Source: Candidatus Goldiibacteriota bacterium (GTDB lineage: Bacteria > Oederibacteriota > JAAXVQ01). Taken from it: 33,642 bases of DNA. Shown in pieces: positions 5,134-22,662 of the stretch. Within the stretch, counting starts at the first letter, position 1. Each line of letters starts with the position of its first letter. The notes beneath the pieces were generated by a model, which did not search any database, was not told the origin of the DNA, and saw nothing but the letters and a program-made list of their open reading frames with translations. The stretch is from the NCBI GenBank assembly GCA_020052235.1, contig JAGVPM010000084.1, positions 1 to 33,642 of the forward strand, in the 5' to 3' direction. A program made the translations under genes and the position numbers.

Positions 5134-5285
5134 AAACCGATCCTATGGTTGAATACAATGCATTGCATCCGGTGCCCACGTATCATAGGGGATGGCTCCG
5201 GTTGGCGCAAGGTTATTTGCAGGCGGCCGTGCCGTTGACGAAAATGCAATTGACAATGAACGGCTGGAGAGGTTAACATTCCGCC

Positions 5286-5594
5286 ATGTTTACCCGGCGC
5301 TTTCGATTTTACTTGATGACCTTGGCACTGACGGCTGACCTGTTTTTTTCAATGGGGTTGGCTGCAGTACATCACCATGCTCACGGCCAGGCGCATCATC
5401 AGGATAATTCCCCTGCGTGTTCCCTTTGTTTGGCGGTCCGGAATTTAGGCTCCGCGGATCAACCGGTTCCAAAGGTTGTGCAACGGCAACCGGCACTGAC
5501 AGCGGTTTCCGCTCTGGTTTTTGTTAAAACGCTCCCATGTAAAAAAAACATTTGCCTTAATCAGCCTGTTATCCATGATCCACCTCTGGTTTAA
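5286..5594 (+). CDS. Small exported His-rich peptide, likely metal-binding
   Basis: The 102-residue product has an N-terminal hydrophobic segment (about residues 8-28). It is followed by a histidine cluster, HHHAHGQAHHQ, and then a CSLC pair within ACSLCLAVRNL. Small exported proteins with a His stretch plus CxxC are often found beside zinc or other metal transporter genes and may act as metal sensors or buffers outside the membrane. Here it precedes a porin-like gene and znuA, which supports a zinc role. The ATG has a GGAGAGG at 5266-5272, a rather long 13-base spacing, so the start is somewhat uncertain. Confidence 0.6.
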   Translation: MFTRRFRFYLMTLALTADLFFSMGLAAVHHHAHGQAHHQDNSPACSLCLAVRNLGSADQPVPKVVQRQPALTAVSALVFVKTLPCKKNICLNQPVIHDPPLV

Positions 5595-5641
5595 TCGTTT
5601 AAAAAAAATCATAAAAACAATTTGCTCTCTTTGGATTTGTT

Positions 5642-5662
5642 AAACCCATCGCCTCTGGGTTT
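5642..5662 (+). promoter_or_regulatory. Small hairpin in the leader of the porin-like gene
   Basis: AAACCCA at 5642-5648 pairs exactly with TGGGTTT at 5656-5662 around a seven-base loop, in the 139-base gap before the porin-like gene. No T-run follows directly, so this is not a clear terminator. It could be an operator or a leader structure. Confidence 0.3.
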
Positions 5663-5733
5663 ATATCCTTTGCTTCATTAATACCCTGTGGTTTGCCGCA
5701 AGGCGCTGCATACTTTACGACCGGAGGTTAGCC

Positions 5734-6936
5734 ATGAAACTATGGATGTATTTATTTATCTGTGTATTCTCGGTTTTGTCAGGTGTTTCACAAAGCGCTC
5801 GGGCTATTGAAACCGATAGCGCCGCCAGCGGTGCGTCCGGATTTTTCGGCGCAGCTTACCTGAGCAATCCCAACCTTTCCTTGATTCTTGACACTAGGGT
5901 TTATTCCTCAAACTTGAACAATTTGGAATTGGAGGCTAAGGGAATTCCTGGCTATACCACTGAAGGATTGGAAATGAAAAAAGGTTTCAATCTGGATTCC
6001 GCGGAGCTCTTCTTTTTTTCGCCAGTGGATCCTTTCTTTAACCTATATGCCGCTATGCCACTATCGCTGGCTGGAGTGGAATTGGAAGAAGCCTATGTAG
6101 TTTCCACCGCATTACCTGAGGGCTTGCAACTCAAATTAGGGCGCTTTAAGAGCAACATCACGCGTTTGGATGCTCAGCACCCGCATGCTTGGGATTTTAC
6201 GGATATGGCATTGCCTTACCGTGCGTTTTTAGGTTCAGAAGGCTTGGGCGGGGAAAATGGTGCCCAGGTGACCTATCTACCCTCATTGCCGGTTTATATC
6301 CTGCTAGGCGCGGAAATTTTGCAGGGCGAAAATCCGCTTATCTTGGGAGGCGATACTTGGGCGGGTCCGCAGGCCTTTACGGGTTTTATCAAAGCCTCGC
6401 TCGACACCAGCGATTTATCGGCCTTGTACTTCGGGCCTTTGGTTCTTGTTGGTCAAACCAAGACCCATGAAGTTATCCCAGGCGCAGCGTTAACTGGCCG
6501 GAGCACCTTGAGCGGCCTGGAAGCGGTTTGGAAATGGAAGCCCTGCGCGGGGATGGGGCTAACCTGGCAAAGCGAGTATTTGGTTTTACACCAGGAAGGT
6601 AAGCTCGCAGACGATGCCGGAATGGTTGGGGATGTGCTTAGAAATCAAGATGGCTTTTATCTTCAATCAGTCTGCCAGTGGTATCAATTTCGGGTAGGCG
6701 CTCGTTATGACCGGCTGGCCTTGGCGTATGATCAATTGAAAATCAACGAAGAGCAACAAGATTTGGGCGACATTCCTTGGCGGGTCAGTGCTAACTGCGA
6801 GTATGTCCCGGATGAGTTTACCAATATCCGCTTACAATACACGTATGACGCTTCTGCACGAAATGGGCAAATTAACCGCGAGATCATATTGCAGTTTATC
6901 TTCGCCATTGGCGCGCACCCCGTGCACATATTTTAG
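5734..6936 (+). CDS. Outer-membrane porin-like protein of a zinc-uptake locus
   Basis: The 400-residue product has a signal peptide (about 1-24, ending SARA). The mature protein alternates short hydrophobic and aromatic strands typical of a beta-barrel. Features include GFNLDSAELFFFSPVDPFF, LKLGRFKSNITRLDAQHPHA and a C-terminal strand REIILQFIFAIG. I recall similar proteins annotated as zinc-regulated outer-membrane receptors next to znuA-like genes in thermophilic bacteria; that match is from memory. I see no TonB box or plug domain. A GGAGG at 5722-5726 supports the ATG. The next gene, znuA, starts 11 bases after the stop, so the two are co-transcribed. The likely role is passage of zinc or another metal across the outer membrane. 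Confidence 0.6.
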   Translation: MKLWMYLFICVFSVLSGVSQSARAIETDSAASGASGFFGAAYLSNPNLSLILDTRVYSSNLNNLELEAKGIPGYTTEGLEMKKGFNLDSAELFFFSPVDPFFNLYAAMPLSLAGVELEEAYVVSTALPEGLQLKLGRFKSNITRLDAQHPHAWDFTDMALPYRAFLGSEGLGGENGAQVTYLPSLPVYILLGAEILQGENPLILGGDTWAGPQAFTGFIKASLDTSDLSALYFGPLVLVGQTKTHEVIPGAALTGRSTLSGLEAVWKWKPCAGMGLTWQSEYLVLHQEGKLADDAGMVGDVLRNQDGFYLQSVCQWYQFRVGARYDRLALAYDQLKINEEQQDLGDIPWRVSANCEYVPDEFTNIRLQYTYDASARNGQINREIILQFIFAIGAHPVHIF

Positions 6937-6946
6937 GAGGCCATTT

Positions 6947-7489
6947 ATGAAAAAAATATTCTTTATGGTATTCGGTTTGCTGTTAACAGTTACAACGGCT
7001 CACGCTGCTATCCATGTGGTGGCTACATTGCCTTGGATAGGGAGCATTGTCCGTGAGCTCGGCGGGGACAAGGTACAGGTCACGGTTTTGGTCAAGCCGA
7101 GCCAGGACCCGCATATTATCGATGCCAAACCCAGTTTCATTCTGGCCGCGCGCAAGGCGGATGTGTTTATGTACAACGGGCTGGACCTGGAAATCGGCTA
7201 CCTGCCTTTGATTGTTGAATCCTCTCGAAATGCCAAACTTCAACCGGGAAAACCAGGGAATTTTGATTGCTCGCGTTTTGTAACGGTGGTGGAAAAAAAC
7301 AGCACAGTGGACCGCAGCTTGGGAGATGTGCACCCGTTGGGTAATCCGCACTATCAATATTCACCCACCAATGTTCAACGTGTGGCCGAGGGGATTGCCG
7401 ACCGCCTGGCGCAATTGGATGGCACCCATACGGAGTTTTTTCAGTTGCGGCTAAAAGCGTTTTCCGAAAACATGAAACAGCTCCCGTGA
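6947..7489 (+). pseudogene. znuA: ZnuA-type zinc-binding protein, C-terminally truncated by a deletion
   Basis: The ATG at 6947 follows GGAGG at 6936-6940; the longer in-frame open frame overlaps the porin-like gene and is rejected. The 180 residues comprise a signal peptide (1-21) and the N-terminal half of a cluster A-1 metal-binding protein. The two expected His ligand contexts are present: SQDPHIIDAKPS and GNPHYQYSP. A complete ZnuA has about 290-310 residues, and the C-terminal lobe with the remaining ligands is missing. The reading frame ends at MKQLP, exactly where a different frame opens into a segment resembling the end of a ZnuB permease. An internal chromosomal deletion that removed the rest of znuA, a znuC-like ATPase gene and most of znuB is the simplest reading. 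Confidence 0.75.
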
Positions 7490-7578
7490 TTGTAGCCGGG
7501 TTGGCAGTGACGTTTTTTTTACTTTTGGCAATCCGGTATGTTTTTCATAAAACGCAAGATGCTTCTTCGCCGGCCTGA
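7471..7578 (+). pseudogene. C-terminal remnant of a ZnuB-like ABC permease
   Basis: In the +1 frame relative to znuA, the sequence reads TAPVIVAGLAVTFFLLLAIR, then a short basic tail ending DASSPA and a TGA at 7576-7578. A final hydrophobic segment starting with a PxIV pattern and followed by a short basic tail is what the last membrane helix of zinc/manganese ABC-3 permeases looks like. It has no start codon of its own. Its position right after the broken znuA supports the identification, but the fragment is short. Confidence 0.5.
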
Positions 7579-7602
7579 TCCGGGCATGGCCGGAAAGAAG
7601 GG

Positions 7603-7631
7603 TTGACGGAAAAAGGAAATTGGCTTATAAC
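7603..7631 (+). promoter_or_regulatory. Sigma-70-like promoter of the UPF0251 gene
   Basis: TTGACG at 7603-7608, a 17-base spacer and TATAAC at 7626-7631 make a near-consensus promoter 36 bases upstream of the UPF0251 start. The -10 element lies inside the left arm of the adjoining palindrome, so a protein bound there would block transcription. Confidence 0.7.
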
Positions 7632-7653
7632 TGGCATATGCCAATTATAAGCC
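7622..7653. promoter_or_regulatory. 32-bp operator-like palindrome over the -10 box
   Basis: The 32 bases form a near-perfect palindrome with a single mismatched pair. The outer arms are GGCTTATAA and TTATAAGCC; the centre is TGGCATATGCCA. It covers the -10 hexamer and ends just before the ribosome site GGGAGG at 7655-7660. This arrangement is typical of a repressor operator. Autoregulation by the UPF0251 helix-turn-helix protein encoded next is the most direct inference. Confidence 0.7.
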
Positions 7654-7666
7654 TGGGAGGCTTGCC

Positions 7667-7975
7667 ATGCCCCGTCCTATAAAAACACGCTGCATTTGCA
7701 CTCAACCTCAGGCAAATTATTTCAAGCCACGCGGGATTCCCATGAGTGAATTGGACGAAGTTGTTTTGACCCTTGATGAATTTGAGGCCGTACGTTGGGC
7801 CGATTGGGAAGGGCTATATCATGCAGAAGCTGCGCAAAAGTTGAATGTTTCCCGGCAAACCTTGGGCAATATCCTGGAATCTGCCCGTCGCAAAATTGCC
7901 GATGCCCTGATTCACGCCAAAGCGCTTAAAATTGAAGGTGGCGTGGTTCAAGTTACCAATACCCTGCAGCCCTAG
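7667..7975 (+). CDS. UPF0251 (DUF134) family helix-turn-helix DNA-binding protein
   Basis: The 102 residues match the UPF0251 pattern throughout: MPRPIKTRCI at the start, LTLDEFEAVRWADWEGLYHA in the middle, then a helix-turn-helix with AAQKLNVSRQTLGNILESAR and the ending RKIADAL...LKIEGG. The N-terminal cysteines (CIC) may bind metal or an Fe-S centre. Members of this family often accompany NifX/NifB-type (dinitrogenase cofactor) proteins, and a broken one follows here 30 bases downstream. The upstream promoter and palindrome suggest that the protein represses its own operon. This gene appears intact, while its neighbours on both sides are damaged. Confidence 0.88.
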   Translation: MPRPIKTRCICTQPQANYFKPRGIPMSELDEVVLTLDEFEAVRWADWEGLYHAEAAQKLNVSRQTLGNILESARRKIADALIHAKALKIEGGVVQVTNTLQP

Positions 7976-8005
7976 GCTGCAATCTTTGATTGTGAGGAGT
8001 TTATT

Positions 8006-8364
8006 ATGGAGTTATGCGTTCCTACCCAAACCCGCGAGGGCAAGCAAGCACAGGTATTTGAGCATTTTGGCAGTGCGCCGTTTTTCACCCTGGTGGACAC
8101 AGAGAGTCAAAGTGTGGAAATAGTTGAAAATGCCAATCAGCATCATGAACATGGCATGTGCCAGCCGCTGCAGGCCATTGCCAACCTTAAAGTAGATGCG
8201 GTGGGGGTATGGGTGCTAGGGCAGTACAGCGTTTGAATGAAGGCGGAATCAAAGTTTATCGCGCTATCCCGGGAACTGTGGAGGCGATTGTGTCCCAATA
8301 TATTCAAGGCAGCTTAGAAGAAATCTCGGTGCATAATGCCTGTTCGCATCACGGTTGCCATTAA
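8006..8364 (+). pseudogene. NifX/NifB-type (dinitrogenase cofactor family) protein, frameshifted
   Basis: The first frame (8006-8236) gives MELCVPTQTREGKQAQVFEH and continues through HGMCQPLQAIANLKVDAV, a typical small NifX/NifB-C-like protein, then goes out of frame. A second frame from about 8196 continues the same family as GGMGARAVQRLNEGGIKVYR, then IPGTVEAIVSQYIQGSLEEI, and ends at a His/Cys tail ACSHHGCH with a stop at 8362-8364. The shift falls in the GTGGGGGTATGGG stretch near 8195-8210, where a few bases appear to be lost. Restored, the protein would have about 120 residues. Such proteins bind Fe-S or Mo-type clusters; their role outside nitrogen fixation is unclear. A sequencing error in the G-rich run cannot be excluded. 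Confidence 0.75.
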
Positions 8365-8459
8365 GCTGGACGGGCGCATGGTTAACAGCCATGAAAAGTT
8401 TTTAAAAATTTTTTTTTGGATAACAAACGAGCAGAAGAAGGCAGTAATGCGGTGAAACC

Positions 8460-8781
8460 ATGAAACAACCAACCTTACTTGAAATCGTAAAGACGGCGCT
8501 CTATATAGGTGTTGTTGGCTACGGCGGACCGGCCATTATTGCGCCCATGAAAAAAATCATCGTGCATGAAAAAGCATGGGTTTCCGAAGAAGAATTTATG
8601 CGCCAGTTAAGTTTGGCGCGGCCTTATTCTGGCCGTCGCACTGCAATTTGCCATCCACTCGCTGGTGAATTGGCGGACTTGGGCGGTTTTTCTTGTTTCT
8701 ATGCTCTATCTTTGGTGGGGGAAGCGGGATACCTTTTGGCTGATTTTAGGAACAGTCATTGCCTCATTGTTCCTGTTTTGA
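8460..8781 (+). pseudogene. Chromate transporter (ChrA family) with internal deletion
   Basis: The first 50 or so codons read MKQPTLLEIVKTALYIGVVG, then GYGGPAIIAPMKKIIVHEKA and WVSEEEFMRQLSLA, the N-terminus of a ChrA/CHR-family permease. At about 8610-8617 the reading frame changes. In the new frame the sequence is RGLILAVALQFAIHSLVNWR, TWAVFLVSMLYLWWGKRD and FWLILGTVIASLFLF with a stop at 8779-8781, which resembles the final two membrane helices of the same family. The middle of the protein, including the PG motif after LAQ, is missing. The remaining frame is open to 8873 by chance. The ribosome site before the ATG is weak. The 3' end overlaps the convergent gene by 18 bases. Confidence 0.7.
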
Positions 8782-9231
8782 ACGCTGGGAAGAGCCTGTC
8801 CACAGGGGAAAACCGTTACGATCCCGCAATTTTAATGTTTGGTTGCCTTTGTGTATTTCCGCTGCCAAGATAACCGTTTGATTCTCGACAACCACACTGG
8901 AGCAAACAACTTCGAGCTTGTCGCCTTTGTTGAGCGTTATAGCTTGCTTGGTCACATAGGCCTTTGGTCCCAAGATCACCGAGAGTTTTTTTTCATCAGT
9001 TTGCAACAGCATGCGCAATCCGAAACTCAAGCCCTTTAGGTTTTTTACATATTCCAAATTAATTATTTTGCCTTGAATGGTTTCGGCTGTTGAAGGGCCA
9101 TAGGAATTCCATATCAGTTTTATATCAGGCGCTCTATGCGGTTTTTCCGGCGGCCCATATTGCCGCCAAACAAAGGTGGCAACTGACAGAAGAAGTAATA
9201 TTCCGATAAGTGTGGTTTTGGTTTTCATCAT
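8764..9231 (-). CDS. Exported protein, OB-fold-like, function unknown
   Basis: The 155-residue product has an N-terminal membrane anchor or signal segment (about 6-24). Residues 50-148 hold a compact beta-rich domain with KGDKLEVVCSSVVVENQTVI and the ending TLKLRDRNGFPLWTG. The patterns GD-LEV-GS and LRD--G-PLW recur in small periplasmic OB-fold-like proteins of unknown role; this comparison is from memory. No clear ribosome site precedes the ATG pair at 9226-9231. It runs opposite to the broken chrA gene and overlaps its last 18 bases. Confidence 0.5.
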   Translation of the reverse strand: MMKTKTTLIGILLLLSVATFVWRQYGPPEKPHRAPDIKLIWNSYGPSTAETIQGKIINLEYVKNLKGLSFGLRMLLQTDEKKLSVILGPKAYVTKQAITLNKGDKLEVVCSSVVVENQTVILAAEIHKGNQTLKLRDRNGFPLWTGSSQRSKQEQ

Positions 9232-9273
9232 AGGCGGTGAACTGGCGGCTTAAGAATATAACGGTTGCGTGAA

Positions 9274-9308
9274 ACGGTTTCGGGAGGAATCCCGGGGCCG
9301 TTTTTTTT
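9274..9308 (+). terminator. Rho-independent terminator on the plus strand
   Basis: A 12-base stem (9274-9285 with 9290-9301, including three G-U pairs) around the loop GGAA is followed by seven further T residues (9302-9308). This is a textbook intrinsic terminator reading rightward. No intact plus-strand gene ends just upstream. It may have served a gene since lost, or may stop transcription that runs antisense through the minus-strand gene. Confidence 0.6.
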
Positions 9309-9420
9309 ATGGCGTCAAGTTTTTGGTATAAGCAGCAGCGCAAAACGTATTGCAATCCTGCAGTAAATTTTATATAGTGGCTGGCAAGTGCAGTCCGCAC
9401 TTTTATCTCAGGAGTATTCC

Positions 9421-9530
9421 ATGTCCGCCATTAATTCTTCAGAAGAAAAAATGATTCATCACATACTTTTGTCATTGGCTGCATTTTTACTCATGGTTGT
9501 GCTTGAGCGTATTGTGGGCAGGTTGTCCAT
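9421..9530 (+). pseudogene. N-terminal fragment of a membrane protein
   Basis: The ATG at 9421 follows an AGGAG at 9410-9414 and reads MSAINSSEEKMIHHILLSLA then AFLLMVVLERIVGRLSIP, one clear membrane helix. The frame stays open to 9651, but from about 9530 the other frame is clearly the C-terminus of a HAD phosphatase, so the natural protein was probably cut here. I cannot name the parent family. Confidence 0.45.
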
Positions 9531-9704
9531 TCCCATGTGGGCGATCTCTGGGAAACGGCCATTCTCGGGGCGCACAATACAGGCTTGCGAGCGCTTTGGT
9601 ACAATCCTACCCGCCAGATTTGTCCGAACCCTGAGTGGGTGCGGGAAGTAAGTTCGTATGAACCACTGGCACCTATTTTGGAATGGCTGAATTTGTCGGT
9701 TTGA
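9531..9704 (+). pseudogene. C-terminal remnant of a HAD-superfamily phosphatase
   Basis: In frame 3 the sequence is HVGDLWETAILGAHNTGLRA, then LWYNPTRQICPNPEWVREVS and a final SYEPLAPILEWLNLSV before the TGA at 9702-9704. HVGD---TAILGAHNTGL is motif IV of HAD hydrolases with its conserved Asp and the following GA-N-GL. No start codon or motifs I-III are present upstream; instead a membrane-protein N-terminus abuts at about 9530. This looks like a deletion fusion. Confidence 0.65.
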
Positions 9705-9773
9705 ATCAATGGCTTCGTAAGAAGGATGTCTGTGAAAATAGAGCGGGTAAGAGTACGAGCTGAGGAGTGCGGC

Positions 9774-9809
9774 ATGAAACCGTTTGGCTACCACGAGACC
9801 CTGCGATGA
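9774..9809 (+). other. Mini-ORF coupled to the DUF454 gene (leader or deletion remnant)
   Basis: An ATG at 9774 with a GAGG ribosome site at 9762-9765 opens an 11-codon frame, MKPFGYHETLR, whose TGA overlaps the next start as ATGA. It could be a leader peptide or the fused ends of a deleted gene, like others in this stretch. Confidence 0.35.
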
Positions 9810-10144
9810 GATACATCCATTATTCGAAAAAAATTGCGTTTTTAATTTTAGGTTGTGTCGGTTTTTTGTTAGGCTTGGTGGGGTTGATGTTGCCGGTGGT
9901 GCCTCAAGTGCCGTTTTTCTTATTGGCGTTTTACGGTTTTGTCCGTGGGTCCGACCGGCTGCACCGCTGGTTGCACCAAGCGCCTAAGCTGGCCTGGTTG
10001 CGTAAGATTTGGGAAACCCACCAACCCACGACACCGGAGAAGGCCAAGCGCCTTCAACTCATTGTCACCATCGGCGTTCTCGGGTATGCGGCGTTAGGCG
10101 GGTTGGCGTATTTTCTATATCGGTTTTGGAAAAATGGACAATGA
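9806..10144 (+). CDS. DUF454 (YbaN-like) inner-membrane protein
   Basis: The 112 residues match the DUF454/YbaN pattern. An N-terminal helix (LGCVGFLLGLVGLMLPVVPQ) is followed by VPFFLLAFYGFVRGSDRLHR and WL, with a second helix near the C-terminus (about 83-103). In the family, the LP-xP-TPF region lies at the membrane and the function is unknown. The ATG at 9806 overlaps the stop of an 11-codon mini-ORF; a GTG at 9767 is in frame but less likely. No gene is visible between its stop and the convergent gene at 10310; the 165 bases there show nothing I can name. Confidence 0.75.
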   Translation: MRYIHYSKKIAFLILGCVGFLLGLVGLMLPVVPQVPFFLLAFYGFVRGSDRLHRWLHQAPKLAWLRKIWETHQPTTPEKAKRLQLIVTIGVLGYAALGGLAYFLYRFWKNGQ

Positions 10145-10309
10145 CACACGTTTCCTGAGAATTGTGTCAGGTAGATGTCGGCGCCTGGAGGGCGTCACTT
10201 ACGCCTGCTGGGACTTTGGATCACGGAGCGGCTTGAGTGTTGGTTTGGGTTGTGGCCTGCAGATGTTATTGAATTCGGAATTCGTACCACGGTAGGATCA
10301 CGGTCAAGG

Positions 10310-18764: not shown

Positions 18765-19897
18765 AGACTACACCCTTGCGCGTGGCAGTGGTTTTCGGCA
18801 CCCGTCCAGAAGCGATCAAACTGGCGCCGGTGATTCATTGCTTGCGGGCGGACAAACGTTTTCGCTGCCGCATAGTGGTGACCGGCCAGCACCGCGAGCT
18901 GCTGACGCAAGCCTTGCAAACCATGAGGTTGGTTCCGGATGCTGATTTGAATTTAATGCAGCATAAGCAGACCTTGGCCTCCTTTGTGGGCGCGGCGTTG
19001 GTTGGTCTGGAAGCCGAGTATAAAAAATGGCAGCCGGATGCCGTAGTGATTCAAGGCGACACGGGTTCGGCCTTGGCCGGAGGCTTGGCGGCGTTTTATC
19101 AAAAAATACCCGTCGGCCATGTGGAAGCGGGCTTGCGCAGTTACGATCATGCCAATCCGTTCCCGGAAGAAGTGAACCGCTGCATGGTCAGCCGCCTGGC
19201 AACCTGGCATTTTGCGCCCACCGCGCTGGCAGCAGAGCAACTGCGCGCTGAAGGCATAGCATCGCAAACCATTTTTGTCACGGGCAATACGGTAGTGGAT
19301 GCGTTGTGCGCACTGGTGAACCCAAAAGCGCTGGCCAAACAGGCCCGCGAACCCCGGGTGGTGGTCACCGCTCACCGGCGGGAAAACATCGGCGCTCCGT
19401 TGGATGAATTGTGCCAAGCGGTAAAACTATTGGCGCAGCGCCATCCTGATATCGAATGGGTTTTTCCAGTGCATCCCAATCCGGAGGTGCGCGGCCGCGT
19501 TATGCGGGGCTTGGCCCCAAAACCGCGCAACATACGCTTGCTGCCACCCATGGAGTATCATGATTTTCTGCGATTTTTGGCGCGCGCGCGTCTGGTGATC
19601 ACGGATTCCGGCGGCGTGCAGGAAGAGGCCACGGTGTTTAATACGCCGGTGATCATTGTGCGTAAGATCACCGAGCGCCCGGAAGTTTTGCAGGCTGGAG
19701 GTGTTTTAGTGCCGGTCAAACACCGCGCCATCGTGATTGCGGCGGAGCGTTGCTTACAACAACCGCAACGTCTACGCCTTGGTGTATCACCGTTTGGCGA
19801 CGGGCTGGCTTCTGAGCGGATTGTGCAAGCATTGGCCTGGGCTCAGGGCAGAGGCGCGGTGCGGCCGAAACCGTTTAGATTTAAAGTTAAGGCATAA
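18761..19897 (+). CDS. wecB: UDP-N-acetylglucosamine 2-epimerase (non-hydrolysing)
   Basis: WecB interconverts UDP-GlcNAc and UDP-ManNAc for surface polysaccharide synthesis. The ATG at 18761 overlaps the preceding stop as ATGA; a longer in-frame start would run through the WecA-like gene. The 378-residue product shows FGTRPEAIKLAPV, QGDTGSALAGGLAAFY, VGHVEAGLRS followed by PFPEEVNR, TAHRREN, TDSGGVQEEA and ITERPE, so all the known catalytic motifs are present. The C-terminus carries FGDGLASERI. It is coupled to the sugar transferase. The adjoining 485 bases downstream contain only repeats and a 39-codon ORF. Confidence 0.95.
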   Translation: MKTTPLRVAVVFGTRPEAIKLAPVIHCLRADKRFRCRIVVTGQHRELLTQALQTMRLVPDADLNLMQHKQTLASFVGAALVGLEAEYKKWQPDAVVIQGDTGSALAGGLAAFYQKIPVGHVEAGLRSYDHANPFPEEVNRCMVSRLATWHFAPTALAAEQLRAEGIASQTIFVTGNTVVDALCALVNPKALAKQAREPRVVVTAHRRENIGAPLDELCQAVKLLAQRHPDIEWVFPVHPNPEVRGRVMRGLAPKPRNIRLLPPMEYHDFLRFLARARLVITDSGGVQEEATVFNTPVIIVRKITERPEVLQAGGVLVPVKHRAIVIAAERCLQQPQRLRLGVSPFGDGLASERIVQALAWAQGRGAVRPKPFRFKVKA

Positions 19898-19919
19898 TTG
19901 GGTTTTGGATTTTTTCCTT

Positions 19920-20008
19920 CTTTGTCATTTCGAACGAAGTGAGAAATCAGTATTGCTTTTATTTTTAAAGTTGTTATTAGATTTCTCACTTCGCCCGAAA
20001 TGACAAAG
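19920..20008. repeat. Inverted repeat of the GTCATTTCGA family, 89 bp
   Basis: The left arm (19920-19948, CTTTGTCATTTCG then CGAAGTGAGAAATC) mirrors the right arm (19980-20008), with a few unmatched bases. The loop is AT-rich. The same short sequence recurs at 20161, 20355, 20677 and 21798. Confidence 0.75.
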
Positions 20009-20121
20009 AAAGAATGGGTGACGAAAGTCGGGCTGGTTAAAGTAATTGGGGTAGGAAAAAATATGTCGATGAAAGAAGTCTTAAGTTGATAAACCGTGGC
20101 GCTACGTAAGGAGGCTGTTAA

Positions 20122-20241
20122 ATGTCTGAATCTGAAAAAGAAAAAACTTTGAAAGATGTTGAGATCTCTCCCTTTGGTCGAGATGACAAGGATGTATGGG
20201 GCGGGTGTCAGTCACCGGTTAATGATGGAGGCCGGAGTTAG
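20122..20241 (+). other. 39-codon ORF ending in repeat-derived sequence
   Basis: An ATG at 20122 with an AAGGAGG ribosome site (20108-20114) opens MSESEKEKTLKDVEISPFGR and runs to a TAG at 20239-20241. The second half is encoded by a copy of the dispersed repeat (20161-20188), giving EISPFGRDDK, almost the same as the repeat-derived tail of the GIY-YIG protein (EISPCGRDDK). It may be a cut-down remnant of a gene of that sort or simply fortuitous. Confidence 0.35.
20161..20188 (-). repeat. Dispersed 28-bp repeat, inverse orientation
   Basis: The sequence is the inverse form of the repeat at 20355-20382 and matches the copy at 20677-20704 at 26 of 28 positions (CTTTGG instead of CTGCGG). Confidence 0.7.
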
Positions 20242-20318
20242 TTTGTTAGTTTTGTTGGGTAAGGTACTCAGCCCGAAACATAAAAATCTCCGCAACTATT
20301 TTCAGCAATTCTTGTCTA
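20234..20318 (+). repeat. Direct repeat DR1, copy 1
   Basis: About 85 bases, from GGAGTTAGTTTGTTAG to CAGCAATTCTTGTCTA, reappear at 21838-21921 with roughly 80 percent identity. The last 30 bases (CGCAACTATTTTCAGCAATT and on) are identical. The two copies flank the GIY-YIG and MNT/HEPN genes. Confidence 0.7.
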
Positions 20319-20354
20319 CTCCCTAGCAATAGTTTGAAATAAACCTCGCACCTC

Positions 20355-20382
20355 TGTCATTTCGACCGCAGGGAGAAATCTC
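20355..20382 (+). repeat. Dispersed 28-bp repeat abutting the GIY-YIG start codon
   Basis: TGTCATTTCGACC...GGGAGAAATCTC ends exactly at the base before the GIY-YIG ATG at 20383. Its inverted partner is at 20677-20704 (26 of 28 matching). There is no separate ribosome site except the GGGAGA inside the repeat, so the repeat supplies the translation start region. Confidence 0.8.
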
Positions 20383-20718
20383 ATGCCCCAAGAGCATCAC
20401 TACTACGTATACCTATTAACCAACCAGAACAACAAAGTCATGTACATCGGCGTAACCAACAACCTTGAGCGGCGGGTGTATGAGCACAAGATGAAGCTGG
20501 TACCGGGTTTTACGGAAAAGTATAACGTGAACAAGCTTGTTTACTTTGAGGAAACGTCCGACGTCCGCGCTGCGATAGCAAGGGAAAAGGAAATCAAGAA
20601 ATGGCGGCGGGAGAAAAAGAATAATCTGGTTATAGCTGCAAATCCTGAGTGGAGGGATTTGAGCGAGGGGTGGGGGGAGATCTCTCCCTGCGGTCGAGAT
20701 GACAAAGGCGAAAGTTGA
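20383..20718 (+). CDS. GIY-YIG family nuclease, repeat-associated
   Basis: The 111-residue protein has a single GIY-YIG domain: YYVYLLTN (the GIY strand, residues 7-14), YIGVTNNLERRVYEHK (21-36) with the catalytic R30, and AREKEIKKWRREKKNNLVI followed by NPEWRDL with the conserved Glu. These small stand-alone GIY-YIG proteins are of unknown function; relatives include UvrC nuclease domains and homing endonucleases. Residues 99-111 (EISPCGRDDKGES) are encoded by the inverted repeat copy at 20677-20704. The ATG directly abuts the left repeat. The gene therefore lies precisely between two inverted copies of a dispersed repeat, which resembles a mobile unit. Confidence 0.85.
   Translation: MPQEHHYYVYLLTNQNNKVMYIGVTNNLERRVYEHKMKLVPGFTEKYNVNKLVYFEETSDVRAAIAREKEIKKWRREKKNNLVIAANPEWRDLSEGWGEISPCGRDDKGES
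20677..20704 (-). repeat. Dispersed 28-bp repeat inside the 3' end of the GIY-YIG gene
   Basis: This is the inverted copy of the repeat at 20355-20382, with two mismatches. It is translated as the C-terminal tail of the nuclease. Confidence 0.8.
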
Positions 20719-20750
20719 GATGACAAAGTTGGGGATCGAGATGACAAAGA
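20696..20750 (+). repeat. Short tandem tail of GAGATGACAAAG units
   Basis: GAGATGACAAAG occurs at 20696-20707, 20718-20729 and 20739-20750, spaced about 21-22 bases apart. These are partial copies of the end of the dispersed repeat, as if it had been extended by slippage or repeated insertion. Confidence 0.6.
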
Positions 20751-20804
20751 CGGAAACTGAGGTAAAATGTTGTTTCTTCCTAAAAAGCATGGTAAATTTA
20801 GGCC

Positions 20805-21122
20805 ATGACTATTCAAGATCGCATGCCCATTATCCAAGACATGGCTGATAAAATTATCGCTGCTTTTTCCCCGGAAAGGATCATCTTGTTCGGTTCCTAT
20901 GCCTGGGGCAAGCCGGGTCCAGACAGTGACATCGATTTTTTTATTATTAAAGATACGAATGATACCCGTAAAACATCCCGGAAGATAAACCGCCTGTTGT
21001 TCCCCAGGGAAACGCCCATTGATGTGATTGTTTTTACTCCGCAAGAATTGGAAAAACGGAAAAATGATTTTTTTGTGGAGGATATTTTGAAGAAAGGCAA
21101 GACGCTATATGCCAGAGCATAG
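20805..21122 (+). CDS. MNT-type minimal nucleotidyltransferase (antitoxin candidate)
   Basis: The 105-residue protein has the nucleotidyltransferase signature GSYAWGKPGPDSDIDFFII, with G30-S31 and the metal-binding D42 and D44, plus a third Asp at D73 in PIDVIVFT. Minimal nucleotidyltransferases paired with HEPN proteins form toxin-antitoxin modules in which the transferase modifies and silences the HEPN RNase. The HEPN gene overlaps its end by 14 bases, so the two are translationally coupled. The start lies after the repeat tail of the GIY-YIG gene, and no clear promoter is seen. Confidence 0.85.
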   Translation: MTIQDRMPIIQDMADKIIAAFSPERIILFGSYAWGKPGPDSDIDFFIIKDTNDTRKTSRKINRLLFPRETPIDVIVFTPQELEKRKNDFFVEDILKKGKTLYARA

Positions 21123-21489
21123 CGTGAAAGAGTGGCTGGCCAAGGCGGAAGAGGATGCAATTGCCGGGGAAGATATTTTAGCTGCGGGACATTTTTATGG
21201 TCCGGCTTGCTTTCACTTTCAGCAGGCAGTTGAAAAAATGCTGAAAGGTTTTCTGCTTTTTCACAATCAGAGATTTCCCAAGAGCCATGATTTACTGCAA
21301 CTGGAAACGTTTCTTTTGCCCTTTGAGCCGGAAATCAAAGAATTAGAACCGGAGTTGGATATATTAAACTCCTATTATATTGAAACCCGTTATCCCGGAG
21401 CAACGTCTGGTTTTACGCGCCAAGAAGCAGAACTGGGTCTCGCGGCTATGATGAAGATCAAGGAATTTATAAAAAAGAAAGTAAAATGA
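21109..21489 (+). CDS. HEPN-domain protein (toxin candidate of the MNT/HEPN pair)
   Basis: The 126-residue helical protein matches HEPN domains: VKEWLAKAEEDAIAGEDILA at the N-terminus, FHFQQAVEKMLKGFLLF in the middle and QRFPKSHDLLQL containing the Rx4H motif (R55, H60) of HEPN RNases. The usual extra Tyr two residues after the His, seen in HepT, is not present (HDL here), so it may belong to the other branch of HEPN proteins. It overlaps the nucleotidyltransferase gene by 14 bases. Confidence 0.85.
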   Translation: MPEHSVKEWLAKAEEDAIAGEDILAAGHFYGPACFHFQQAVEKMLKGFLLFHNQRFPKSHDLLQLETFLLPFEPEIKELEPELDILNSYYIETRYPGATSGFTRQEAELGLAAMMKIKEFIKKKVK

Positions 21490-21498
21490 AGCTCCCTG

Positions 21499-21628
21499 CG
21501 GCAGGCCGGAAACATTCCTGCACGAAGGCCAAACCGAGATTAAATATTCCTTGAAGCAAAAAGTGGACAGGGAAGAATTGGCCGAGATAGAAAAACGGGT
21601 GGTGAGGCTGGAAAATAAAGTGGCGTAA
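21499..21628 (+). pseudogene. Coiled-coil gene fragment without a start codon
   Basis: One frame reads PETFLHEGQTEIKYSLKQKV then DREELAEIEKRVVRLENKVA and stops at a TAA (21626-21628). It is clearly charged and helical, like the end of a real protein, but no start codon lies upstream. The parent family is unknown. The bases immediately before it read out of frame from the HEPN gene. Confidence 0.35.
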
Positions 21629-21759
21629 CCGCGCTGTTCAGGTTTCGTTGAACAATCGGATATCGCTGGAATTAAATGATTAACCGGAACCTTTCGCCCG
21701 CATCGGTGCAAGGCGCGATTTTCGCGTGGCCCTTTCACTCATACCTCATGCTAAAATTT

Positions 21760-21791
21760 AACGTCCCTGAAATTCATGGGAACGTTTTTTT
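21760..21791 (+). terminator. Rho-independent terminator
   Basis: AACGTCCC (21760-21767) pairs with GGGAACGTT (21778-21786) with one bulged base, followed by a run of T residues to 21791. It would end transcripts from the MNT/HEPN pair or from the gene fragment before it. Confidence 0.5.
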
Positions 21792-21797
21792 AAAGTT

Positions 21798-21827
21798 TGT
21801 CATTTTGAGGTAAACCCGAGAAATCTT
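21798..21827 (+). repeat. Degenerate copy of the GTCATTTCGA repeat
   Basis: TGTCATTTTGAGG...CCGAGAAATCTT resembles the dispersed repeat at 20355, with several changes. It lies directly before DR1 copy 2. Confidence 0.5.
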
Positions 21828-21837
21828 GATGCGTGAC

Positions 21838-21921
21838 GGAGTTAGTTTATTAATTTTGTTAGGTGCGGCACCAGGTCTAAAACAGAAAAATTCCGCAACT
21901 ATTTTCAGCAATTCTTGTCTA
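21838..21921 (+). repeat. Direct repeat DR1, copy 2
   Basis: Second copy of the ~85-base repeat at 20234-20318, in the same orientation, 1.6 kb away. Apart from this, the terminator and the degenerate repeat, the 545 bases between the HEPN gene and the dinD fragment hold no gene I can support. Confidence 0.7.
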
Positions 21922-22034
21922 AAAAAGAAAAAACGATTTAGAAATATGATTTAATACGAAATAGGATAATATTTCGATGAATTCCCGGATTCCATAGTTG
22001 ACGTGAGCGTGGGTAAGAACGGAGGGGAAAAATA

Positions 22035-22427
22035 ATGGCAAAGGAAATTGCAAAGATAACCGGCGGTCATGCGTCGCCTTTCGAGCGGATCAAGCGCATG
22101 AACGATTCGGGTATGGAGTTTTGGTCAAGCCGTGACTTTTCCGAGGTGCTCGGTTACGGCGATTACCGCAATTTTGAGGGAGTTATAGAGAAGGCCAAGA
22201 TGGCCTGTTTTAACAGTGGACACCGTCTTGAAGACCATTTCGTTGACGTCACCGAAATGGTCGCCATCGGGAGTGGTGCTGAGCGGCCTATTAAAAATAT
22301 TCTCCTTTCCCGTTACGCCTGTTACCTTGTCATTCAGAACGCCGATCCCAACAAGGAGATTGTGGCACAAGGTCAAACCTACTTTGCCATCCAGACGCGG
22401 CGTCAGGAACTGGCGGCAGAAACGTAA
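22035..22427 (+). pseudogene. DinD-like protein, C-terminally truncated
   Basis: The 130 residues match the N-terminal half of DNA-damage-inducible protein D. Landmarks are SPFERIKRMNDSGMEFWSSR, DFSEVLGYGDYRNFEGVIEK, then HRLEDHFVDVTEMVAIGSGA and LSRYACYLVIQNADPNKEIV followed by AQGQTYFAIQTRRQE. Full-length DinD has about 270-280 residues; here the frame ends right after RRQELAAET. The first half is well preserved, so this is either a recent truncation or a short stand-alone form. An AGGGGAA lies before the ATG. Downstream (22428-22662) I see no gene. Confidence 0.75.
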
Positions 22428-22662
22428 AATTTTGCGTTGTTGCGCGGTTTCATTTCAAATTCAATACCTAATTTCTTGAAAAATCTATTTACCGTGATAT
22501 CAAGCTATGGTGGGCACTTGCCTGTAAAAACCCCTGAGATTGTGGCTTTTCGTGTTTTACTAGGTGTGCTTATTTAAGATTTATATTATAATTACCGAAT
22601 GTTTCGTGGACTCTGGACATATAACCACGCAAGTGATTTTGCAAGCAAGCGAAGGAGCACTT

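Follow-up and report, generated by a model that had tools for sequence, protein, structure and literature searches.

The window analysed here is an entire contig (C68) of 33,642 bp from a genome of 3.17 Mb in 200 contigs, with a reported completeness of 99.33% and contamination of 0.22%. Between truD and a tolB-like gene it carries about 5.2 kb of accessory DNA (positions 5134–10309), here called the accessory block, in which at least four genes are broken and others are intact; the genes of this block lie on the forward strand unless stated otherwise. The intact members include a small His/Cys protein (5286–5594), which resembles an ORF of locus L201 and has a similar small protein in front of the porin in relatives, and a porin-like outer-membrane protein (5734–6936), a related ORF of which lies upstream of the binding protein gene in relatives. 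Further intact members are a UPF0251/DUF134 regulator (7667–7975; PF02001, 76.4 bits against a cut-off of 27, positions 6–95 of 98), a 155-aa protein on the reverse strand (8764–9231), an open frame with a weak MamS-like match, and a DUF454 membrane protein (9806–10144; PF04304, 68 bits against a cut-off of 35.1). As the small protein, the porin, UPF0251 and DUF454 are all intact, part of the block may still be in use.

The surroundings of the block are undamaged. Backbone genes that were checked, truD, rpiB, glyA, a cyclase, sugar genes and nrdR among them, cover their profiles and are intact. Every scar falls inside the one accessory block, and the damage is confined to it. Relatives available for comparison were one genome of the same genus (G001) and six of the same order. 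In G001 (locus L087), truD and the tolB-like gene lie only about 140 bp apart, and their order and orientation match those in the window. The block is therefore present here and missing from the corresponding site of a close relative, as is typical of a genomic island. No direct repeats of at least 14 bp flank it, no RNA genes were found in the window and no integrase or transposase was found among the window ORFs identified by Pfam. Because mobility genes, an RNA integration site and flanking repeats were not found, we file it simply as an accessory block. Short accessory genes also form a second patch at 19895–22560, between wecB-like and O-antigen-ligase-like genes. This patch contains a GIY-YIG gene, a nucleotidyltransferase-HEPN pair and a 130-aa Bro-N protein in which only that domain could be recognised, and is in part of low GC.

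The four broken genes

The first of the broken genes (6947–7489) encodes a ZnuA-like binding protein truncated to about 60%. Its 180-codon open frame (6947–7486, with a stop at 7487) matches positions 1–144 of the 263 in the ZnuA profile (PF01297, E = 4.8e-30), and it is by these N-terminal positions only that it belongs to the family; full-length relatives of the protein exist. Overlapping its end is a possible C-terminal remnant of a permease, 31 aa long (7483–7578). Pairwise alignment of this frame (7483–7575) against permeases gave scores no better than those of shuffles, and against a profile of the permease C-terminus 114 of 5000 shuffles scored as well, a weak signal. A permease gene does follow the binding protein gene in relatives, and a remnant at 7483 is thus favoured by position and barely by sequence.

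The NifX-type gene (8006–8364) is divided between two frames, one (8006–8233) covering positions 3–64 of PF02579 and a different one (8200–8361) covering positions 60–94 of 94. In a DNA alignment with the intact nifX genes of G025 and G028, the window copy has a single gap of 7 bp, at 8202/8203. The remnant of chrA (8460–8781) is similarly split: 8460–8612 corresponds to positions 1–43 of PF02417 and 8611–8778, in another frame, to positions 117–164 of 166, the second piece being weak when taken alone (E = 0.0074). In a Syntrophaceae MAG (L158), an intact gene for a ChrA of 397 aa lies upstream of UPF0251. Alignment to it places the break close to 8618/8619 and shows that about 872 bp are absent, a length that is not a multiple of three. 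The window copy resembles this long-chain ChrA chromate transporter in its first 51 residues (78% identical) and its last 53 (55% identical), but it lacks about 290 middle codons, has its two ends out of frame and does not contain a complete PF02417 transporter domain.

The last of the four is the C-terminal remnant of a YjjG-type HAD phosphatase (9531–9704), of which 9531–9701 matches positions 175–222 of 223 in TIGR02254 (E = 1.2e-5); the N-terminus is missing. A 248-aa ORF in G007 contains the matching HAD C-terminus, and no YjjG above the cut-off was found elsewhere in the genome. Directly in front of the remnant stands an N-terminal fragment (9421–9530) with a ribosome-binding site and start site and no detectable relative.

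Compared with profiles and intact genes, the binding protein gene, nifX, chrA and the HAD gene all have the disrupted frames of pseudogenes. All four junctions put the second part out of frame, and profile coverage shows that conserved domain halves are missing. No point-mutational decay was seen apart from the breaks, and the surviving fragments have open frames that are still conserved (77% identity to intact genes for the 3′ part of nifX and 78% for the 5′ part of chrA). Since the fragments are still open and conserved, the breaks look recent, or false. The stretch 7490–9800 is without any ORF of at least 160 aa, unlike every control window: among 838 overlapping windows of 2.3 kb, taken from 20 stretches on other contigs of the same genome (253 kb in total), none lacked such an ORF. 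The cluster of damage exceeds chance. The sparse control stretches that we inspected consist largely of short open genes in succession, and one gene among them may be frameshifted. This is a pair of overlapping frames at 2135–2958 of locus L103 (contig C25), which resemble a single outer-membrane protein gene broken by a frameshift and may be a further pseudogene.

An earlier sequence-only reading of this DNA had described four damaged genes between 6947 and 9704 (ZnuA-like, NifX-type, chrA and HAD), and frames, coordinates and profile coverage confirm this inventory, as they do the intact state of the UPF0251 gene in the middle. Its frameshifted NifX/NifB-type gene is borne out by the two PF02579 frames and the gap, and its chrA without a middle by the recovery of both ends. 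The comparison with intact relatives that it proposed allowed the deletions in nifX (7 bp) and chrA (about 870 bp) to be placed. Its statement that recognisable ends of two proteins meet in three cases fails for chrA, where the two ends are those of one protein, and needs qualification at the other sites. For the supposed joining of znuA to a znuB-like end, the truncation of znuA stands and the znuB-like identity is at best weakly favoured, with a null pairwise result and a weak profile score. For the membrane-protein N-terminus joined to a HAD C-terminus, the HAD part is upheld; the N-terminal part has its ribosome-binding site and matches nothing that would identify it.

Intact cassettes in other genomes

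Two Omnitrophota loci (L173 and L136) contain a complete set of genes in the order porin, binding protein, permease, UPF0251 and nifX, with one additional gene between UPF0251 and nifX in L136. The order in the window is that of the Omnitrophota cassette minus the permease. Other families of the host phylum likewise have a porin, a binding protein and a permease (271–275 aa) in that order, and a related porin ORF lies directly upstream of the binding protein gene in G009, G024, G015, G013, G023 and G021. The block shares its gene order with a ZnuA/AztC-type metal ABC uptake cassette, made up of a PF01297 binding protein and a permease of about 272 aa, as seen in L173 and L136. It differs from these in that the 3′ end of the binding protein gene and almost the whole permease gene are missing, in its frameshifted nifX, and in the chrA, YjjG remnant and DUF454 gene that follow downstream. 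In the Omnitrophota cassettes (L173:1–3679 and L136:1–4424), an ATPase gene was not seen between the binding protein gene and UPF0251.

Elsewhere in the same genome, contig C57 encodes a znuABC of its own that is intact, and because of it a second metal-uptake system would be dispensable.

Proposed origin and erosion of the block

The simplest reading of these observations, and one that we consider quite probable, is that a dispensable and probably acquired metal cassette has been eroded by deletions. Genes for metal uptake (porin, ZnuA-like binding protein, permease, UPF0251 and NifX-type protein) would once have stood in the block as a cassette, together with chrA and others, and part of the block would no longer be under selection, plausibly since a separate intact znuABC is present. 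Piecemeal removal would have followed, with deletion as the route at all four sites. The first deletion would have taken about 120 codons of the binding protein gene along with the bulk of the permease gene, which the lengths in relatives put at about 1.1 kb in all, and one event may account for the loss of both; 7 bp of nifX and about 870 bp of chrA would have gone in others, and a further event would have left the YjjG C-terminus. The sequence-only reading had likewise taken repeated deletions in one metal-related region as a sign that selection was lost, and this part of its interpretation is supported by the intact relatives, the placed deletions and the second intact znuABC. It did not recognise that the scars all belong to a single accessory block which G001 lacks at this position.

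Transfer from elsewhere is the likely origin of the block, judging from the comparison of genomes, although its composition does not point that way and the lack of a flanking repeat, RNA gene or recognised integrase speaks against it. In a tree of poor resolution, from which no donor can be named, the UPF0251 gene does not group with its counterparts from the order. A DNA-level search against 59 relatives gave short matches only, a scan of the genome contigs with TruD gave no relative, and no match in plasmids was found for 7600–8800, for the 31-aa tail or for the 9421 fragment. The block might instead be old and vertically inherited, with complete loss in G001 and in the relatives at order level, and the window would then show an intermediate stage of that loss. 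Such a history would suit the related porin, binding protein and permease operons in several families of the same phylum, and also the composition of the block, which is not foreign (GC 0.485, the 22nd percentile of 5.2-kb windows). We nevertheless regard it as unlikely: none of the seven genomes at order level or closer has the porin or a close binding protein, and chrA was seen in none of the 12 relatives searched. Moreover, the tolB-like neighbourhood occurs in four order-level genomes but the block does not, with a PorV-like gene directly adjacent in three of them (L088, L089 and L092).

The broken junctions are known from one genome's assembly, and the breaks could be faults of that assembly, arising where a mixture of strains or low coverage was misjoined, with full-length genes in the cell. 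The breaks are clean, with open and conserved fragments on both sides and no point decay, and a false join would look alike. However, three large breaks and one of 7 bp would have to coincide within 2.8 kb, and there is no comparable cluster in the contig's backbone genes or in the 253 kb from other contigs. Furthermore, the middle of ChrA, or any other ChrA, and a permease of the cassette type were found on no other contig of the bin. Local misassembly is thus improbable in our view. The sequence-only reading had also named a collapse of the metagenome assembly, which is not indicated, given the intact backbone genes, the reported completeness and contamination, and the absence of the missing permease and chrA middle from the rest of the bin; a genome-wide collapse was rejected, the backbone genes being intact and the control stretches showing no comparable cluster of damage. 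That the short products are working, rewired proteins from fused or split genes under selection is very hard to credit, for although no stop interrupts the frames before the junctions and UPF0251 and its palindrome are intact, the second part is out of frame in four of four junctions, conserved domain halves are lost and the same forms occur in no other sampled genome.

On the reading that we favour, the region is a dispensable metal cassette in decay, an instance of ordinary bacterial gene loss. Bacterial pseudogenes have been studied in Salmonella, for example (PMC2916853). The block is like young pseudogenes in accessory or acquired DNA in its clustered truncations and frameshifts, its intact backbone and its still recognisable fragments. 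It differs in that most of the damage here looks like large internal deletions, all in one metal-uptake block and known from one genome. What appeared in the raw sequence as odd fusions proves to be a single accessory block undergoing erosion, rather than scattered lesions, and the decay in itself is ordinary.

The UPF0251 regulator and its upstream palindrome

UPF0251/DUF134 is a widespread HTH family, often encoded beside NifX-type genes, and it has hardly been studied: our full-text searches under both names brought up nothing beyond single passing mentions, and our literature searches returned no report of a palindrome upstream of UPF0251. In the window, a palindrome of 32 bp, GGCTTATAACTGGCATATGCCAATTATAAGCC, lies upstream of the gene at 7622–7653. 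It is symmetric at 15 of 16 positions, has three mismatches to the core pattern TTATNNGCATATGCNNATAA, and is a probable operator. Similar palindromes occur in front of UPF0251 in relatives, and the loci surveyed for them, from many phyla, include L004, L005, L006, L043, L044 and L049, and L133–L212.

To count these, we used the 77 of 80 close UPF0251 loci, from many phyla, that had the required minimum of at least 50 bases upstream. CATATG occurs no more than 100 bases upstream of UPF0251 in 55 of the 77, nearly always as the centre of the palindrome ATTATNNGCATATGCNNATAAT, as against 41 of 3763 stretches of 100 bases elsewhere in the same loci (1.1%); many of the 77 loci are inter-related, and the ratio of these two figures is not a formal probability. 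In several relatives the palindrome comes after a TTGACA-like box, an arrangement that would fit autorepression. The CATATG-centred palindrome is thus a probable, putative autoregulatory operator of UPF0251/DUF134. We lean towards the view that this protein regulates its own gene by binding ATTATNNGCATATGCNNATAAT in the promoter region, and that protein and operator would here have outlived the transport cassette that they once controlled.

Together with the cassette found across phyla, the palindrome leads to a concrete hypothesis for UPF0251/DUF134, namely metal-responsive autoregulation, and we consider it a more useful lead than the gene decay itself. The genome contains a second, shorter UPF0251 gene (C72:22464–22721, L130), which has no palindrome upstream. 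Phylum-wide, ten sites match TTATNNGCATATGCNNATAA with at most one mismatch; seven of these are found a short distance upstream of UPF0251 genes, and one more, in G042, lies about 570 bp upstream of such a gene.
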